Of a stretch of 64,000 nt of DNA, positions 34,355-63,559 are shown one piece after another. The stretch spans positions 3,596,001 through 3,660,000 of the forward strand of contig OY101115.1 in assembly GCA_956465555.1 (NCBI GenBank). Direction: 5' to 3'. The position numbers and the translations under genes were made by a program. This DNA comes from Nitzschia sp. pyKryTriq1. Taxonomy: Eukaryota; Bacillariophyta; Bacillariophyceae; Bacillariales; Bacillariaceae. Under the pieces are notes generated by a model, which saw only the letters and a program-made list of their open reading frames with translations, was not told the origin of the DNA and searched no databases. Position 1 is the first letter of the stretch; the number at the start of each line of letters is the position of its first letter.

Positions 34355-35351
34355 AGGAAATGGCGAATGCGGTCGTCCAAAGATCATGAAGCGGTGGTTC
34401 TGCTCTACAACGAAACCAGTATTCGTTCACACAAACTAGAAACCTATATATTTGCTGTCTACCCTGACTCTACAATAGTACTGGTAGATAGTCCTACTAC
34501 CTACTGGTACCATCTACAGTACCGTACCGGTAGACTACCAGAACTGCATTTTCGTGTGATTTGGGGTCAAACATGTCCCCCAATTTTAAATATATCAACC
34601 CCGCCCCCCCGGCGCGACGATCGAGAACTTCACACGTGGTACGGTACCGGTATGGTACGACAATGGTGGGAAGCAACAGTATGTTAAAATCCGTGAGTTC
34701 TAGGCAGTGGCTAGCGGCTCAGGGATTCGGGCTAAAGGACTAATTTGACTGTGGGATAACGAAGTGTGTTATCTTAAATTAATGAGCTCTTGCTCTAACT
34801 GATGAAATGAACTTTTGTTCATTTCTAAAGGACTAATTTGACTGTGGGATAACGAAGTGTGTTATCTTAAATTAATGAGCTCTTGCTCTAACTGATGAAA
34901 TGAACTTTTGTTCATTTCTACTTTTCTTGAATCGTTGACATGTATTTCGATAGAAGTCTGTGGACTTCTTATAGTTTCTTGGAGGATCATAGACTGTCTC
35001 CGATAGTCTTAGAAAGAATCTCTGAGTCGTGATCCAAACGTGTGTCGAACGTAATCGTGCGTAATCGTGAACGCTGGTCGCGTCCGTCCGTCATTCCATG
35101 ATCGTCCGTTGTAGGTAGATATTCGAACAACAGTACAGTACAAATAGCGGAAACACCAAGCACACCACAGACGGGGGTAGCAAGTCACTCTACTCTTTAG
35201 CTACTCTACGAAGTAGAAAGTAGAGAGAAGAGCGTAGCGTGTTTGGTATTTGCGCATACACTACTACCGCAGAGCTCTACATTTCTAACTCAGTCGAGTC
35301 ACACCCACCTCGAAGACGCACTTTCAGTAACTTCATTCAAACTGCAGAACA
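34355..35351. promoter_or_regulatory. Spacer with perfect 93-bp tandem duplication
   Basis: 997 bp. It holds GTAC-rich palindromes near 34490-34545 and 34640-34660, the 93-bp duplication at 34732-34917, further hairpin-rich sequence (34921-35010), and CTACTCT hairpins at 35185-35232 upstream of the next ATG. No gene. Confidence 0.55.
34732..34917. repeat. Perfect 93-bp tandem duplication with three hairpins per unit
   Basis: Units at 34732-34824 and 34825-34917 appear identical. Each carries three inverted repeats in a row: GATAAC-GTTATC, GAGC-GCTC and AAATGAAC-GTTCATTT. Identity points to a recent duplication. Confidence 0.9.
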
Positions 35352-48508: not shown

Positions 48509-50062
48509 TTATTGCAGGATTTGCAGTTGCTCGAGACTTTTTTCTTCCTCGATTCTATCCTCCCCGCTTCCCTCCTCGCGATCTTCTGGCAATGTCTGAA
48601 TTCTCCTCACTTGCACTTTCGCACCATCATCTCTTACCCAATCATCGAGCCATGTCGACCAAGTCGGCATTGCGTTTGTTCGACTCAGTGTCATGTTCAC
48701 GACTTTCCCAACAATCGAAGAAGTCATGGCACGCGTAAGAGCACCCCGAAGGTCCTGATTTCAAAGGACGGCAAGGATTAGTCGATAGTATAGTTTGGTC
48801 AACGTCCATGGATCAATTTGCGCGACACTCACCGTAGAACTCGACATGAGCGTCTCCATATCTTCAAACGACCACATCCAGACTTTGCAGTCTTCTTTCG
48901 CTAGGACGGTGTAAAGCACAAAAGCAGTTTTAGATAGAGCAGGTGCACCGGCCCCAACTTTCTGCTCGGAAGGAGCCTCTGATTCCTCGACTTTCGGGCT
49001 CTCCGACAATTTCTCGATCGCTTCCTTCCCATCACCTTCATTTTGTGGACGCTCAACTTTTGAAGGTGCCTTCTTTTGCTGCTCTTTTTCTCCGAGTCTG
49101 TCAAGAAACGTCATTTCTCCCACCCAGGCACCCGAATCGCCACCAAGTCTTTTAAGCTTAGCATCAGTTGAGGTAGATTGCGCTGTGAGGTGGCGCCCCT
49201 TGATATGAGCCTGTGTCGATCCATCAACCACAAGGTAGATCTGATTGAGAGATTCTCCTTTCCGTATCAGCGCATCTCCCTTCTCAAATGTCAAGACCTT
49301 TGCGGATTGTTCAATGCGTTGAAATTGCTACAGTGAAAGTGAATAGATGTCAGATCATCGAGCGTCGACCTATCAAGCAAATATTTCAGAACAACACTGT
49401 AAATACCGACCACCTACCTTCGGAGTAACTCCATGCTGAAGAAAGTATTCCACGTAAATCCTTTCTTGTTCTTCGTCCATGTGAACTTCGGCATTTCGTT
49501 CATGCAATATTTCAACGATTTTCACTCCGTTCACGGATGCAAAAAGAGATGGCCACGCTATAGTAATCCATAGTATCGGCTTCTGTGTGTATCGGTAGAC
49601 GGCATTGCAAACGGACCCCATTGCCGATAACGACCGAAGTTCCAAGACATCTGATCGAGTAAAGGCGAGAAGAGTACATATAGATCCAACATTCAGCAAA
49701 AGTGTAGGCAAGTTGACCGTGCACCACACCAAAAATCGTCGAAGCAAGTTTTCGTTTCGACCAGCGAGGGGAAAGAGAGTCTCAAGAGAAAGTTTTGATG
49801 ACGAATCGCTCAAAAGGCCGTGGACAATTTTTGGAACGGGAAGAATGGATGGAAAGGACGGCAGACGAGGAAACCCTTCATTTTTCTGTGGTAACTTGAC
49901 TCGAAAGTATTGCCCTTTGTAGATCCCTTTGACGTACTTTGGCTGATGCGCCTGTTGAAATCGTTTGCGGTTGCTGGGATGTCCGCCTTTTAGTATCTGT
50001 CGAATGGCGTACGGGCCATGCAAACTCTGTTCCACCAGCGCTTCGATGACTTTGTGTCTCAT
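48509..50062 (-). CDS. Popeye-domain-like protein, array member I
   Basis: Three exons: 50062-49418, 49327-48833 and 48754-48509, phase 0 throughout; 461 aa. Layout: a basic N-terminus with YVKGIYKGQYFRVKLP, then three predicted transmembrane segments (LLLNVGSICTLLAFTRSD, LRSLSAMGSVCNAV, PILWITIAWPSLFASV), then HERNAEVHM and a cyclic-nucleotide-binding-like beta-roll with GESLNQIYLVVDGS and GDSGAWVGEMTFLDR. A three-TM segment plus a cNMP-like roll is the architecture of Popeye (POPDC) proteins, which bind cAMP at membranes. An acidic, Lys/Glu-rich insertion (about residues 290-340) is present only here. Assignment as Popeye-like is from architecture; cAMP binding is unproven. Confidence 0.8.
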
Positions 50063-50921
50063 TTTTTCGTTCCTTTTCGCTGCTCAAGAATGCTGCAGAA
50101 CAAGGCGTCGGAAATGAATTTCGAATATAATGATGATGGGACGATTCCAGGAAGAAATTGAGTGAGAAATGTTTTAACCAAACACATCTCGTTGTGAAAG
50201 TGATCCATGGAAATGAAGCCAAGATGATCATCGTCGTCTGTCATTTTTGTTTTCGAATTTATAGTTTAGTTTTACAGTATCTTTTTCGCCAGAACGCGAG
50301 CGGTGACGACGCCGAGACGCGCACGCACGTGCGACGACACGGCTGGGAGACGAGCAGGCGAGCCGCCGGCCAATCAGATAGTACCTGCCTGGTAGCGAAA
50401 CGACATCAACAAATACTCCTCTCACACCGGTACGAATAAAGTAGGACATGGAACAGAAGACTACACAACAACACTCATGTAGCATGTAGCTAGGACATGG
50501 ACAAATGCCTGACTGGACTGGTGACTGGTGCGATCCATCCGCCCATCGCCGTTCTGAGCTCTGACCTGAATTTGAGAGTGCAAGTACTCGTACAGTAGCA
50601 GTACCAGTACTGGTAGTCTCAATGTGTAAAACTGTCGCACATTCTTCTCTCTCTACTACTAGTCCGACTCTGAACCGGACTCGGACGGTGATAGTGATAG
50701 TTAAAGTACGCATATTAGTGGTCAGCCTAGGTGCCCGCGAGCCTCTGCCGGGATTGGAATCCCATGCTGGGCAAGCTCAACGACACCGGAGGTAGTTAAC
50801 AACAACAACATATAGTAGTACAAGAAGTGAGGTAAAAGGTAAAACTAACACGAGAAACCCCCGCTTCATTCTTCTACAAAACACTGTTGCAATGATACAT
50901 TTTTAGAGGATAAGGACAAAG
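50063..50921. other. Spacer between array members I and II
   Basis: 859 bp. It has GTAC-rich palindromes (about 50583-50618) and a GGGATTGGAATCCC hairpin inside a larger TGCCC...GGGCA stem at about 50730-50775. An open frame of about 160 codons on the minus strand looks like composition only. No gene. Confidence 0.5.
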
Positions 50922-52151
50922 CTACGCAGTTGCAGGGCGGTTGGATTGTTTGTCTTCCGCCAGGCGGGGTTGTGATTCGCTCCTTAAAGTGACCTTCGCA
51001 CTGCTGTTAGATCCCCAGTCGGACAGCCAAGTGGACCAATGAGGCAGCCCATGTTGCGTTCGACTCACGGTGAGATTGACCACCTTTCCGACAAGTGCAG
51101 ACGTCATTGCACGGGTAAGTGCAGAACGAAGATCCGTCGAACTTCCCATCAACTCGGCCATGTCTTCGTGTGTCCACGATAGTACAGTACAGTCTTCGTC
51201 GCACACAATTGTATAGATAGCTGCTTCCGCCACCTTCTTTGACGCTTCGTTTGTCTTTCCCTGTTCCAGTTCCCAGAGGCGATCTAGGAATGCCATTTCG
51301 CCAATCCATGCCCCGCTGTCACCTCCCGCCTTCTGGTCTCCTTTGGTGTCAGGATTGGTTGAGGCCGCCGTAACAAATCTTCCAAGAACCAAAGCCCTCG
51401 TAGCGCCTTCTGCAACCAAGTAGACTTTGTCGAGCTTGTCACCAGACCGGACTAGGATGTGCCCTTTCTTGAACGATAATTTCGTTGCCTTTTGCAGGAT
51501 ACGTTCGTACTGCTTCGGGGTCACTCCATGGCTCATGAAGTGAGAAACAAATAATTTTTCTTGATCCTCTGTCATGTGTACTGCTGCATTTCTCTCATGA
51601 AGAATTTCAATGATTTTCCAAGAATTCACAGAAGCAAATGTACCCGACCACCCAATGCTCGGCCACAAAATTGGGTTTTGCTGGAGCACATACAGGATGA
51701 ACATGACGTTACCGGTCAACGCCAGCGAGCGCAATTCGAGAACATCGGATCTCATAAAGCCAACTAATGTGCACATACTTCCAAAGTTCAACACTAGAAC
51801 AGCACGGTTGGACTTTAACCATCCCAGCAGTCGTCTGGGGTAACTTTCGAATTGAATGGGTGAGACCGAGCTCGCCTTGAGTGGTTTTGGAGGGGTCGAC
51901 AAGGGCTTGGGCATCGGGTTCGTCGGTGGGAGCTTCGGAACATCTGGCAGGGTCTGTTTTTGCGGAGGAATCTTGATTCGGAAATAATTCCCGTTGGACA
52001 CACCTTTCACATATCTTGGTTGAGGTCGTCTCCCGCGTCGTTTGGTTGGCACATAGCCGGGCAACTTGGTCTGGATCTGGAGCAGCTCTCTCACAGTGCG
52101 AGGGACCTTTGGGGTACCGCGGAAGAGCTGCTGAATAAGATTCGTCGACAT
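50922..52151 (-). CDS. Popeye-domain-like protein, array member II
   Basis: 409 aa from the ATG at 52151, intronless. It is a paralog of the neighbours: YVKGVSNGNYFRIKIP (about 48-63), three TM segments (about 117-133, 141-157 and 164-184), the linker HERNAAVHMTEDQEKLFVSH, MSHGVTPKQYERI and a cNMP-like roll (about 220-360) with GDKLDKVYLVAEGA and GGDSGAWIGEMAFLDR. The tail is WSTWLSDWGS. It lacks the two introns of member I. The three genes lie head-to-tail on one strand. The basic N-terminal part could be a mitochondrial or membrane-targeting extension. Confidence 0.82.
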   Translation of the reverse strand: MSTNLIQQLFRGTPKVPRTVRELLQIQTKLPGYVPTKRRGRRPQPRYVKGVSNGNYFRIKIPPQKQTLPDVPKLPPTNPMPKPLSTPPKPLKASSVSPIQFESYPRRLLGWLKSNRAVLVLNFGSMCTLVGFMRSDVLELRSLALTGNVMFILYVLQQNPILWPSIGWSGTFASVNSWKIIEILHERNAAVHMTEDQEKLFVSHFMSHGVTPKQYERILQKATKLSFKKGHILVRSGDKLDKVYLVAEGATRALVLGRFVTAASTNPDTKGDQKAGGDSGAWIGEMAFLDRLWELEQGKTNEASKKVAEAAIYTIVCDEDCTVLSWTHEDMAELMGSSTDLRSALTRAMTSALVGKVVNLTVSRTQHGLPHWSTWLSDWGSNSSAKVTLRSESQPRLAEDKQSNRPATA

Positions 52152-52680
52152 GTTATCTCCTCTTTGCAATGCCAAGAAGTGTTCAACTCGACATCGATAA
52201 CAGCATAACAAGAATCAATTATCCTGTATCCTGTACGAGTACTCGTATCCGCGCACTGCTGGGTTGTGGGTCGTTCTGGCAACGAACTGAAACAACGAAC
52301 AACGAACAGCTGTGCAAAAGCTGCCTACAGTACTATCACCGCCGATAGCAAGATGAGTGAGCGAGTTGAAAGAGTGAGTGAGGGAAGAAGGAGAAGCGCA
52401 AAAGAAGGGCGAACGCGCGTTGGGGGAAATAAATTCGCGCCCTTCTTTGAAATAAGTCACGAGTGGGCAGTCATGAGTTTCACATTCGATGCCAATAAAT
52501 AAAATAATACCGGTACGTTGTGTTTATGTACTGTAGCCTGTCTCATTACAACAAGCACAAAAACATCACGCGAGTACCTTCAATAGACTTCGAGTAGAGT
52601 ACTCATAGCTGATACTGGTACGTTGCGGCAGCAGAGGGGGAGGTGCCGCCTGACTAGCTACTACAGTACGGTAGTTATTG
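52152..52680. other. Spacer between array members II and III
   Basis: 529 bp with TACCGGTA at about 52508-52515 and a few GTAC repeats. No gene. Confidence 0.5.
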
Positions 52681-53889
52681 CTACTGACGACCTGACTTTA
52701 CCTCAATGTGATAATCGTCCTTGCTCCTCCAGTCTGTCAACCAGGTTATCCAGCTCTGTCTCGATCTATCATTACGCTCGATAGTCAAGTTGATTACCTT
52801 GGCTACCATAGCAGCCGTCATCGCACGCGCCAGAGCGGCTCGCAAGTCGGTAGACGTCTCCATGAGCTCTTCCATAGACTCATGAGTCCATGTCATGACT
52901 TGAGAGTCTTCATCGGCTATAATCGTATACATGGCAACTCCTCGCCCAAGTTTGACATTATTATCCGCGTGGTCAGCTGAAGTATCCTCGTGGCGTCGAT
53001 AGAACCAATCCAAAAATGCCATCTCCCCTATCCAAGCTCCACTATCACCACCTTCGAGCTGATCACCCCTTGTTGCAGGGCTCGAAGATACGGCTGTCAG
53101 CCGTTGGCCGAGGATATGGGCATGGGTAGACCCCTTCACCACCAGAAATACTGTATCAATCATGTCCCCCTTATGAATAAGTGTTTCGCCCTTCTTCATG
53201 AAATTTATTTGGGCTTTGCCTTCTAACCAAGAGAACTGTAATGGAGTCACTCCATGGTCCATGAAATAGTTAACAAATATTCGTTCTTGCTCTTCTGTCA
53301 TGTGCACTTCCGCGGTCCTCTCATGGAACATATCCCAAATTTTGGATGCATTCACGGTGGCGAAGATTGTCGACCATATCACGCTTGGCCACAAGATATT
53401 CGCTTGCCCCAAATTATAAGCTGCAAAAGTCAGTTGACCAGTCATGGTCAATGAGCGGAGTTCCAGAATATCCGAACGAGAAAATCCGACCAAAATGCAA
53501 ATACTGCCGAAATTTAGAGTGAGTACAGGAAGATTGGATCGAAGCCACTTTGTAAATTGCCTTGCGTACGAGTCTGAAGTGCCACCAGCTCCCTCGCTTG
53601 GTCTCAAAACAACAGGTGCCTTTAAATTTTCTATTGACGATTTGATTTGCGGATTGCTTTCTGTGACTTTGGCTTGCGATGAAGCGTCCTTTGGCTTTGC
53701 TTGTTCCATGGGAATTCGTATCCTCGCATAGTGACCATTTCTCATAACTTTGATATGCTTCGATGGGATGATCTTCCGTCTCCTTTTAGGATACAATTCG
53801 TGTTTGGGGATCTGGAGCGCGTCTCGAACAGATTCCGGAGCCCTGCCCGAGTATCCTCGCAGCAGGAACTGGGCGAGTTTGTTTGCCAT
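52681..53889 (-). CDS. Popeye-domain-like protein, array member III
   Basis: 402 aa, intronless. The third paralog: HIKVMRNGHYARIRIP, three TM segments beginning VLTLNFGSICILVGFSRSD, HERTAEVHMTEEQERIFVNY, MDHGVTPLQFSWL and a cNMP-like roll with GDMIDTVFLVVKGS and GGDSGAWIGEMAFLDW. The tail WITWLTDW is shared with member II (WSTWLSDW) and member I (WSTWLDDW). Domain order and spacing match member II closely; the insertion of member I is absent. Divergence among the three is high outside the TM and roll motifs, so the array is old or fast-evolving. Confidence 0.82.
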   Translation of the reverse strand: MANKLAQFLLRGYSGRAPESVRDALQIPKHELYPKRRRKIIPSKHIKVMRNGHYARIRIPMEQAKPKDASSQAKVTESNPQIKSSIENLKAPVVLRPSEGAGGTSDSYARQFTKWLRSNLPVLTLNFGSICILVGFSRSDILELRSLTMTGQLTFAAYNLGQANILWPSVIWSTIFATVNASKIWDMFHERTAEVHMTEEQERIFVNYFMDHGVTPLQFSWLEGKAQINFMKKGETLIHKGDMIDTVFLVVKGSTHAHILGQRLTAVSSSPATRGDQLEGGDSGAWIGEMAFLDWFYRRHEDTSADHADNNVKLGRGVAMYTIIADEDSQVMTWTHESMEELMETSTDLRAALARAMTAAMVAKVINLTIERNDRSRQSWITWLTDWRSKDDYHIEVKSGRQ

Positions 53890-61657: not shown

Positions 61658-62275
61658 TTTTATGGTTGCTACGAGATTAAAGTTGAAAGAATTACTATGC
61701 ATGTAATTGAAAGTGGGATTAGAAGTCGAGTACTTTTGAAGAGTGGGATTTTTTGGGGGAAGAAGTGAATACAAATATAGAAAAAACACCTCTACGTTAT
61801 TTAAAAATACTTCGTACAGTAGACGAGAGAATGAAAGACTTTCGCCTGTGATGTACAGGTAGACTAGTCTAGTAAATATGTATATCATGTAAGAAGTCGA
61901 GAGGTAAGATCTCTTACTTTAATAAAAAAATGAAACCGATCGTTGATTAGATCTCCAAAGTTCCAAATACGTCATATCGTGCTTATTAAAATTGATGTGC
62001 GTTAAATTTAATTACTAAATTATTTTTAATTCTACTTGGTCTTAAATATCATCTTAAACTCAGTCTTTTGATAAGGAGATCCATTTCGTATCTTGAATTT
62101 TTGTTTCATCGCACCACACACCACACCTTGTGGCCAATACATAGCTACTGGCCATCGCACTCTCAGCGACTCTCATCAAACATGGACCATGGCGGCATAG
62201 TCATGATCGACCAAAGCTACTAGTCCCAGCTAGGAGCGTACGTAAATTGTTGAGATACTCAATCAAATCTGTTCA
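61658..62275. promoter_or_regulatory. AT-rich spacer upstream of the DNA methyltransferase gene
   Basis: 618 bp with an AT-rich island (about 61900-62060), much richer in A+T than its surroundings, with long A/T runs. Presumed promoter and 5' UTR of the methyltransferase gene. No gene. Confidence 0.5.
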
Positions 62276-63559
62276 ATGACAAAAAAGAAGAAAAATCGCA
62301 GCAGTTGTTACCACTGTGGATCCGAAGATCATCGTGCCAAGGAATGCCCCGATTCAACCTGTCAGAGTTGCGGGGACCATGGCCACGATGTGGGCGGTTG
62401 TCCCACCCGCCAGAAACAGGCAACAGATATGGGACGTTTTGAGCCCACCACGCCAGAAAACACTTGCAGGTTTAGATATGTAGAATTATTCGCCGGCATT
62501 GGTGGATTTCGCATCGCCTTGGATAGACTCGGTGGGCACTGTGTATTTGCGTCCGAAATCGATCGGTTCGCACGCGCCAACTATGAACTCAATCACTCTG
62601 ATCGACCGGCCGGTGATATTACCAAGATATCCGAAGACGCAATACCAGACCACGATCTCTTGGTAGGGGGGTTTCCCTGCCAGGCGTTTAGTTCCTCAGG
62701 GGCCCGGAACGGGTTTAAGGATGAACGCGGTGTGCTCTTTCTCGAGATTGCGCGGATCGTCAAGCGGAAACAGCCTAAAGCTATACTGTTGGAAAATGTA
62801 CGGGGGCTCTTGACCCACGATAATGGAAACACGCTTCGTGTCATTTTATCGACACTAGAAGAGTCAGGATACGTGATGAACTATCAACTTCTAGATGCGG
62901 TCCACTTGGTGCCACAAGAACGAAAACGCATCTATTTGGTTGGCGTTCGCAAAGACGTGTGGGTGCCTGGTGGATACAAGTTTCCGAGGATACCTTCATT
63001 ACATAGAGGCTTTAGGGATATCATGGAAACCAAAATTGACGCAGAAATGGTAGAATACCTCTCATTGTCGGATCATCAGCTTCAGAAAGTGAGAAATCAG
63101 AGCTATACACAAAAGTTTGCTGACGCCCGCTTTCTTGTCGATCTGGCCAAGCCAACCAAGACCCTTCAATCGAGCTATGCTAGCTATATGGTGGGTTCGC
63201 AGTTTGTACCAGTACTGACCAACGGTAACAGTGAAATGTTTCCTGAACAGTGGCGAAAGTTGTCACCTCGTGAAGCTGCAAGAATCCAGGGATTTCCAGA
63301 AAAGTTTCAACTGTGCCATACTCGGCCCTATCACTTACTCGGAAACGCTGTGGTCCCCAGCATGGTTGTCTTGGTGATAGCCCCACTACTCAAGGTATTG
63401 GATCCGGCAGTAGAAACCACCGATTGCCTAACGCAAGGGTTGCAGGTGGCCAATTCATTGTTGTTGGAAGCTAGTCCCAGCGACGAGCGAGTAAATGACT
63501 TGGAGAAGGCAATCGATTCTCTTACTGCTACCTTGTTCTGGGCAGAACAACCAATTTAA
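62276..63559 (+). CDS. Bacterial-type cytosine-5 DNA methyltransferase with N-terminal zinc knuckles
   Basis: 427 aa, no intron. Two CCHC zinc knuckles open the protein: CYHCGSEDHRAKEC (residues 11-24) and CQSCGDHGHDVGGC (30-43), both fitting CX2CX4HX4C. A C5-methyltransferase domain follows: motif I FAGIGGFRIAL (about 71-81), motif IV with catalytic Cys in GGFPCQAFSSSG, motif VI ENVRGL, motif VIII QERKRIYLVGV, motif IX with SPREAARIQGFP and motif X GNAVVPSM. All catalytic motifs are present, so it should be active. No BAH, PWWP or plant chromo-type domain is seen. The domain is closer to bacterial Dcm-type enzymes than to DNMT1/3. Bacterial-type DNMTs are known in diatoms, but the knuckle fusion is unusual. 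Recognition sequence and targets are unknown. Confidence 0.94.
   Translation: MTKKKKNRSSCYHCGSEDHRAKECPDSTCQSCGDHGHDVGGCPTRQKQATDMGRFEPTTPENTCRFRYVELFAGIGGFRIALDRLGGHCVFASEIDRFARANYELNHSDRPAGDITKISEDAIPDHDLLVGGFPCQAFSSSGARNGFKDERGVLFLEIARIVKRKQPKAILLENVRGLLTHDNGNTLRVILSTLEESGYVMNYQLLDAVHLVPQERKRIYLVGVRKDVWVPGGYKFPRIPSLHRGFRDIMETKIDAEMVEYLSLSDHQLQKVRNQSYTQKFADARFLVDLAKPTKTLQSSYASYMVGSQFVPVLTNGNSEMFPEQWRKLSPREAARIQGFPEKFQLCHTRPYHLLGNAVVPSMVVLVIAPLLKVLDPAVETTDCLTQGLQVANSLLLEASPSDERVNDLEKAIDSLTATLFWAEQPI

Follow-up and report, generated by a model that had tools for sequence, protein, structure and literature searches.

The 64,000-nucleotide stretch of the genome of the diatom Nitzschia sp. pyKryTriq1 that was analysed here (assembly GCA_956465555.1, contig OY101115.1, positions 3,596,001 to 3,660,000; hereafter the window) contains an intact frame of 427 codons, P0001, which begins with ATG at position 62276 and ends with a stop codon at 63557–63559. 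Its predicted product combines two N-terminal CCHC zinc knuckles with a full cytosine-5 (C5) methyltransferase domain of bacterial type. The first-pass annotation had described the frame 62276–63559 in these terms, and the pattern search, Pfam and TIGR00675 confirm it. We give an even chance to P0001 being a C5 DNA methyltransferase encoded by the diatom host, descended from bacterial (M.HhaI/Dcm-like) enzymes and since equipped with the knuckle pair, which would give it an accessory hold on nucleic acids.

In the six-frame translation of the window (127,996 residues) the strict pattern CX2CX4HX4C is found only in P0001, where it occurs twice. When residues 1–65 were shuffled 200,000 times, at least one knuckle arose in 543 cases and two knuckles in a single case. 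The knuckle pair is thus beyond chance. PF00098 matches the whole protein over one stretch (24.5 bits with a cut-off of 20.8) and the N-terminal 64 residues over two (31.4 bits, E 1.7e-7). None of the eight zinc ligands is lost and the distances between them are kept, which suggests selection; the preservation of the ligands also argues that the N-terminus is translated. The nearest in-frame stop lies 10 codons 5' of Met1 with no further ATG in between, and the next methionine after Met1 is Met52.

The methyltransferase domain (residues 66–367) matches PF00145 with 264.8 bits and TIGR00675 with 268.2 bits. Motifs I, IV (PCQ), VI (ENV), VIII (QxRxR), IX (RE) and X (GN) are all found in P0001, in this order. 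Gly74, Pro134-Cys135-Gln136, Glu173-Asn174-Val175, Gln214, Arg216, Arg218 and Glu333 are invariant in all 42 aligned sequences, and Gly356-Asn357 is kept in 41 of them. The predicted fold resembles that of M.HhaI, so that P0001 is like the M.HhaI/Dcm-type enzymes in its catalytic motifs, their order and the fold; it differs from them by residing in a eukaryotic genome, by the two knuckles and by a C-terminal helical extension (block predicted local distance difference test (pLDDT) values of 84–86 for the first helix and 61–62 for the second). Identity of the methyltransferase domain to bacterial and phage enzymes is about 30–44%. The best named relatives compared are M.SpyI of phage phi1207.3 (42%) and a dcm-annotated enzyme of plasmid pECL18 (40%), which we take to be Ecl18kI. 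Both carry a helix-turn-helix (HTH)-like N-terminus in place of the knuckles. The block pLDDT of P0001 drops from 91 to 49 at the target-recognition region, which is weakly similar to several bacterial and viral ones, and in the alignment P0001 lacks the conserved block of TLSARYYKDGSEIL type that is found in the M.SpyI/Ecl18kI group. For these two reasons the sequence preference of P0001 is not readable, and the specificity of that group, presumably CCNGG, is not transferable to it. The coordinates of all features are collected in Table 1.

Table 1. Features of P0001 and of its upstream spacer, in window coordinates.
Feature	Position	Strand	Basis
Intronless open reading frame, 427 aa, zinc-knuckle C5-methyltransferase (P0001)	62276..63559	+	Frame translation, Pfam
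Basic N-terminal segment MTKKKKNRSS, putative nuclear localisation signal	62276..62305	+	5 of 10 residues K or R
Zinc knuckle 1, aa 11-24, CYHCGSEDHRAKEC	62306..62347	+	Exact CX2CX4HX4C, PF00098
Zinc knuckle 2, aa 29-42, CQSCGDHGHDVGGC	62360..62401	+	Exact CX2CX4HX4C, PF00098 on N-terminal 64 aa
C5-methyltransferase domain PF00145, aa 66-367	62471..63376	+	Pfam
Catalytic motif IV Pro-Cys-Gln, aa 134-136	62675..62683	+	Invariant in 42/42 aligned sequences
Target-recognition region, about aa 232-326	62969..63253	+	Alignment; block pLDDT drop; weak similarities
C-terminal helical extension, aa 381-423	63416..63544	+	Predicted model, two helices
AT-rich upstream spacer, 35.6% GC (guanine plus cytosine)	61658..62275		Base composition

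The relatives compared with P0001 were prokaryotic and viral sequences as well as paralogues from the same genome. None of the 168 distinct prokaryotic and viral relatives carries the CCHC pattern; 24 distinct rows come from bacteria, phages and plasmids, and the other 144 are distinct frames at 160 loci of viral contigs, the best 80 loci from each of two scans with alignments (A1 and A4). The best frames of these loci are 29.6–60.5% identical over the aligned part. The pattern is likewise absent from the six other C5-methyltransferase genes of the same genome in the frames examined (for L004 and L046 the part inside the extracted locus, separate upstream exons not having been sought). The absence of the knuckles from the prokaryotic and viral relatives and from these six genes suggests that they most likely joined the enzyme in the eukaryote, and the fusion may occur in other eukaryotes, annotated or not. 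In some bacterial relatives the place of the knuckles is taken by the HTH-like segment, so the pair may have replaced it after transfer.

A specific bacterial or viral donor of P0001 was not identified in any of the searches performed. A viral-contig scan with P0001 alone returned no relative and a genome-contig scan returned three; in two bacterial phyla matches at E 1e-40 were found in 10 of 299 and 6 of 199 genomes. A tblastn search gave 1605 phage records and at least 5000 plasmid records, four loci of which were checked for knuckles, and a DNA-level plasmid search gave a single match (94 bases, 78.7%).

Pfam finds nine C5-methyltransferase matches in the genome: P0001, the six other genes (L002, L003, L004, L005, L043 and L046), a second match within L004, and L047, which lies below the cut-off and was not counted. 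L002 is bacterial-like (a 627-aa frame), L005 and L043 carry the CFT motif of the DNMT2 type, and L046 reads to us as DNMT5-like. For phylogeny 70 rows were collected, including the 40 best of the 80 loci from the first viral-contig scan; the duplicates L052 and L065, the diatom's own L046 and L047 and the loci of the second viral scan were never in the tree. After removal of 14 viral rows (those with numbers from L098 upwards), a quick tree of 56 rows put P0001, L002 and both genes of DNMT2 type into one open group (88). After additional removal of the divergent L003, L004, L005 and L043, a careful tree of 52 rows united P0001 and L002 with support of 99/97. The pairing is nevertheless not firm, because the L002 branch is long (2.22) and there is no other close eukaryotic row. 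L002 itself (G000:C7:1866293-1867360) has about 250 residues ahead of its methyltransferase domain, without a Pfam match there, and its motif VIII (TATSRKR) is without the usual Gln. The genome has two DNMT2-type genes with CFT, L005 (G000:C2:2479788) and L043 (G000:C11:229949-231247), the latter with long serine/threonine-rich stretches.

The first-pass annotation had also claimed that a knuckle joined to a Dcm-type methyltransferase is not a standard layout of eukaryotic DNMTs. This agrees with the literature, of which the papers cited here are represented by excerpts. The companion domains of DNMTs listed in PMC12344493 are BAH, RFD, CXXC, chromo, PWWP, ADD and SNF2; they include no CCHC, a term absent from its main text, and orphan, bacterial-like DNMTs of eukaryotes are generally without companions there. 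SNF2, the C-terminal helicase of DNMT5 (PMC3145265), has no Pfam match in P0001, which ends 60 residues past the methyltransferase domain. Surveys covering diatoms describe DNMT3, 4, 5 and 6 together with orphan enzymes and, as excerpted, name no CCHC partner (PMC9998398, PMC12344493). The fourth C5-methyltransferase gene of Phaeodactylum and Thalassiosira is bacterial-like (PMC3145265), and by description its product is, like P0001, a diatom enzyme close to bacterial ones. This gene is possibly the DNMT6 of PMC9998398, where diatom DNMT6 is without chromatin domains and neither "knuckle" nor "CCHC" appears in the main text. A brown-algal transposon joins ParB to an N4C/N6A methyltransferase, an enzyme of a different class (PMC12477816). 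No report of a fusion of knuckles with a C5-methyltransferase was found in the open-licence literature searched. The enzyme type is already known in diatoms (PMC3145265), and what looks new is the added knuckle front end.

If P0001 is the host enzyme proposed above, its lysine-rich N-terminus would serve for entry into the nucleus, where the knuckles would fold around zinc and provide an accessory, mostly non-sequence-specific hold on RNA in the vicinity or on DNA that is single-stranded or melted. The methyltransferase domain would flip out a cytosine and methylate it through Cys135, as M.HhaI does, at a short sequence chosen by its own target-recognition region.

The knuckles could be more selective than this. 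A search of the PDB with the knuckle pair gives LIN28 at the top (2li8, E 2.1e-5) and retroviral nucleocapsids next, and in LIN28, as in P0001, a tandem CX2CX4HX4C pair stands behind a basic stretch. It is therefore imaginable, if rather improbable, that the knuckles recognise particular RNAs to some degree and bring P0001 to the loci which make that RNA, so that DNA methylation would be targeted in an RNA-linked way. Nucleic-acid-guided targeting, which the first-pass annotation had suggested, is possible in this sense, but guidance by RNA is so far unsupported. LIN28 stacks on RNA bases by Tyr140 and His162 (PMC3759924, as excerpted). An aromatic residue directly after the first Cys is found in knuckle 1 only, where Tyr12 is kept and aligns with the corresponding tyrosine in knuckle 1 of LIN28; the second stacking residue is missing, the linker is shorter than in LIN28 and the knuckles are joined to a methyltransferase. 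In addition, CCHC pairs are a generic feature, and the stretch that matches LIN28 is short. It would be a still longer shot that the LIN28-like knuckles and the captured bacterial enzyme form a guided methyltransferase built by the diatom lineage, in which active loci would direct methylation through their RNA or single-stranded DNA, unlike in the RNA-directed DNA methylation of plants. RNA might also be the substrate itself, with the knuckles as a grip on it, as the first-pass annotation had considered. Knuckles often bind RNA, as is well established for LIN28, but the nearest sequences and the nearest folds of P0001 are DNA enzymes, with DNMT2 structures further down the lists, and the CFT motif, a mark of the transfer RNA methyltransferase DNMT2, was looked for in P0001 and is absent. 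DNMT2 and DNMT6 are described as RNA-associated in the excerpts of PMC12344493, where, however, both are consistently without companion domains. The proposal of RNA methylation is hence unsupported, and we regard it as improbable.

Somewhat better placed, though still unlikely, is the possibility that the knuckles mediate contact with a protein or came along passively through exon shuffling, the methyltransferase acting alone through its own recognition region. Knuckle 2 is without an aromatic residue at the stacking position and contains acidic residues, the frame of the paralogue L002 shows no knuckle, and bacterial type II relatives are generally known to function without knuckles; the intact zinc ligands speak against this reading. 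Least probable is that P0001 was left behind or is carried by a mobile element, composed of a Gag knuckle and a methyltransferase after the manner of the retrotransposon-borne DNMTs of dinoflagellates and charophytes. Such DNMTs do exist (PMC5890265, as excerpted) and share with P0001 an algal DNMT with an unusual partner, and Gag-like knuckles are present in the genome (e.g. CHHCGxxGHMKSQC, the copia/Gag label being our reading). P0001, in contrast, is single-copy: a DNA search of the genome found no second copy of the gene region, no direct or inverted repeats of at least 20 bases were found in 57–64 kb of the window, and no reverse transcriptase or integrase was matched in the 17 of 76 window open reading frames scanned with Pfam. 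The genome has 30 PF00098 matches, and from these the knuckles of 10 further frames that show the strict pattern were compared with those of P0001. In this tiny set knuckles of cellular type match better than the Gag-like ones (E 0.15 or more), the best being glycine-rich genes (E 2e-4 and 4e-4) followed by single-knuckle genes (0.005 and 0.017). None of the ten is claimed as a knuckle donor.

Several observations weigh against P0001 being a host enzyme with a nucleic-acid grip. Gln30 and Asp38 of knuckle 2 stand where LIN28 appears to have His162 and Met170 (positions matched by us to the excerpted PMC3759924), so the grip is expected to be weaker than that of LIN28 or different from it, and nucleic-acid binding by the knuckles may be weak altogether. 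The AlphaFold model gives a pLDDT of 40–45 at the knuckles, a value which is uninformative as the aligned rows are without that part and zinc is not modelled. Initiation at Met52, which would yield a knuckle-free enzyme, is conceivable. Finally, the codon divergence of P0001 (0.091) lies above that of 10 of 11 window genes, though within their range (0.027–0.131), and a faint foreign signal is possible.

The genome comprises 40.65 Mb in 20 contigs, with eight silicon-transporter and 72 light-harvesting matches, which mark it as that of a diatom. P0001 stands among ordinary genes. Its left neighbour is a 977-aa frame with a sub-threshold Pfam match only, and the right neighbour is a gene of the 5'-nucleotidase family on the opposite strand; serine hydroxymethyltransferase and other housekeeping frames, read by eye, lie outside the window. 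The GC content of the upstream spacer is lower than that of every 600-base segment (step 100) of the 64 kb. The horizontal origin suggested in the first-pass annotation is plausible as far as bacterial descent of the methyltransferase domain is concerned. The two signs adduced for it do not sustain it: intron-poor genes are normal in diatoms (P. tricornutum has 0.79 introns per gene according to the excerpted PMC3145265), and the AT-rich stretch is an intergenic spacer.

Elsewhere in the window, three adjacent frames on the minus strand (49373–53889) have POPDC matches, two of them also cyclic-nucleotide-binding ones, and a perfect tandem repeat of two copies with a 93-base unit lies at 34732–34920. 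Equal-score light-harvesting pairs about 40 kb apart (G000:C1:4283352-4323732 and G000:C3:3144038-3187064) suggest a duplicated segment.

A bacterial-type enzyme to which a module for nucleic-acid binding has been joined, as proposed here for P0001, would show one route from a captured methylase to a tool of the host.
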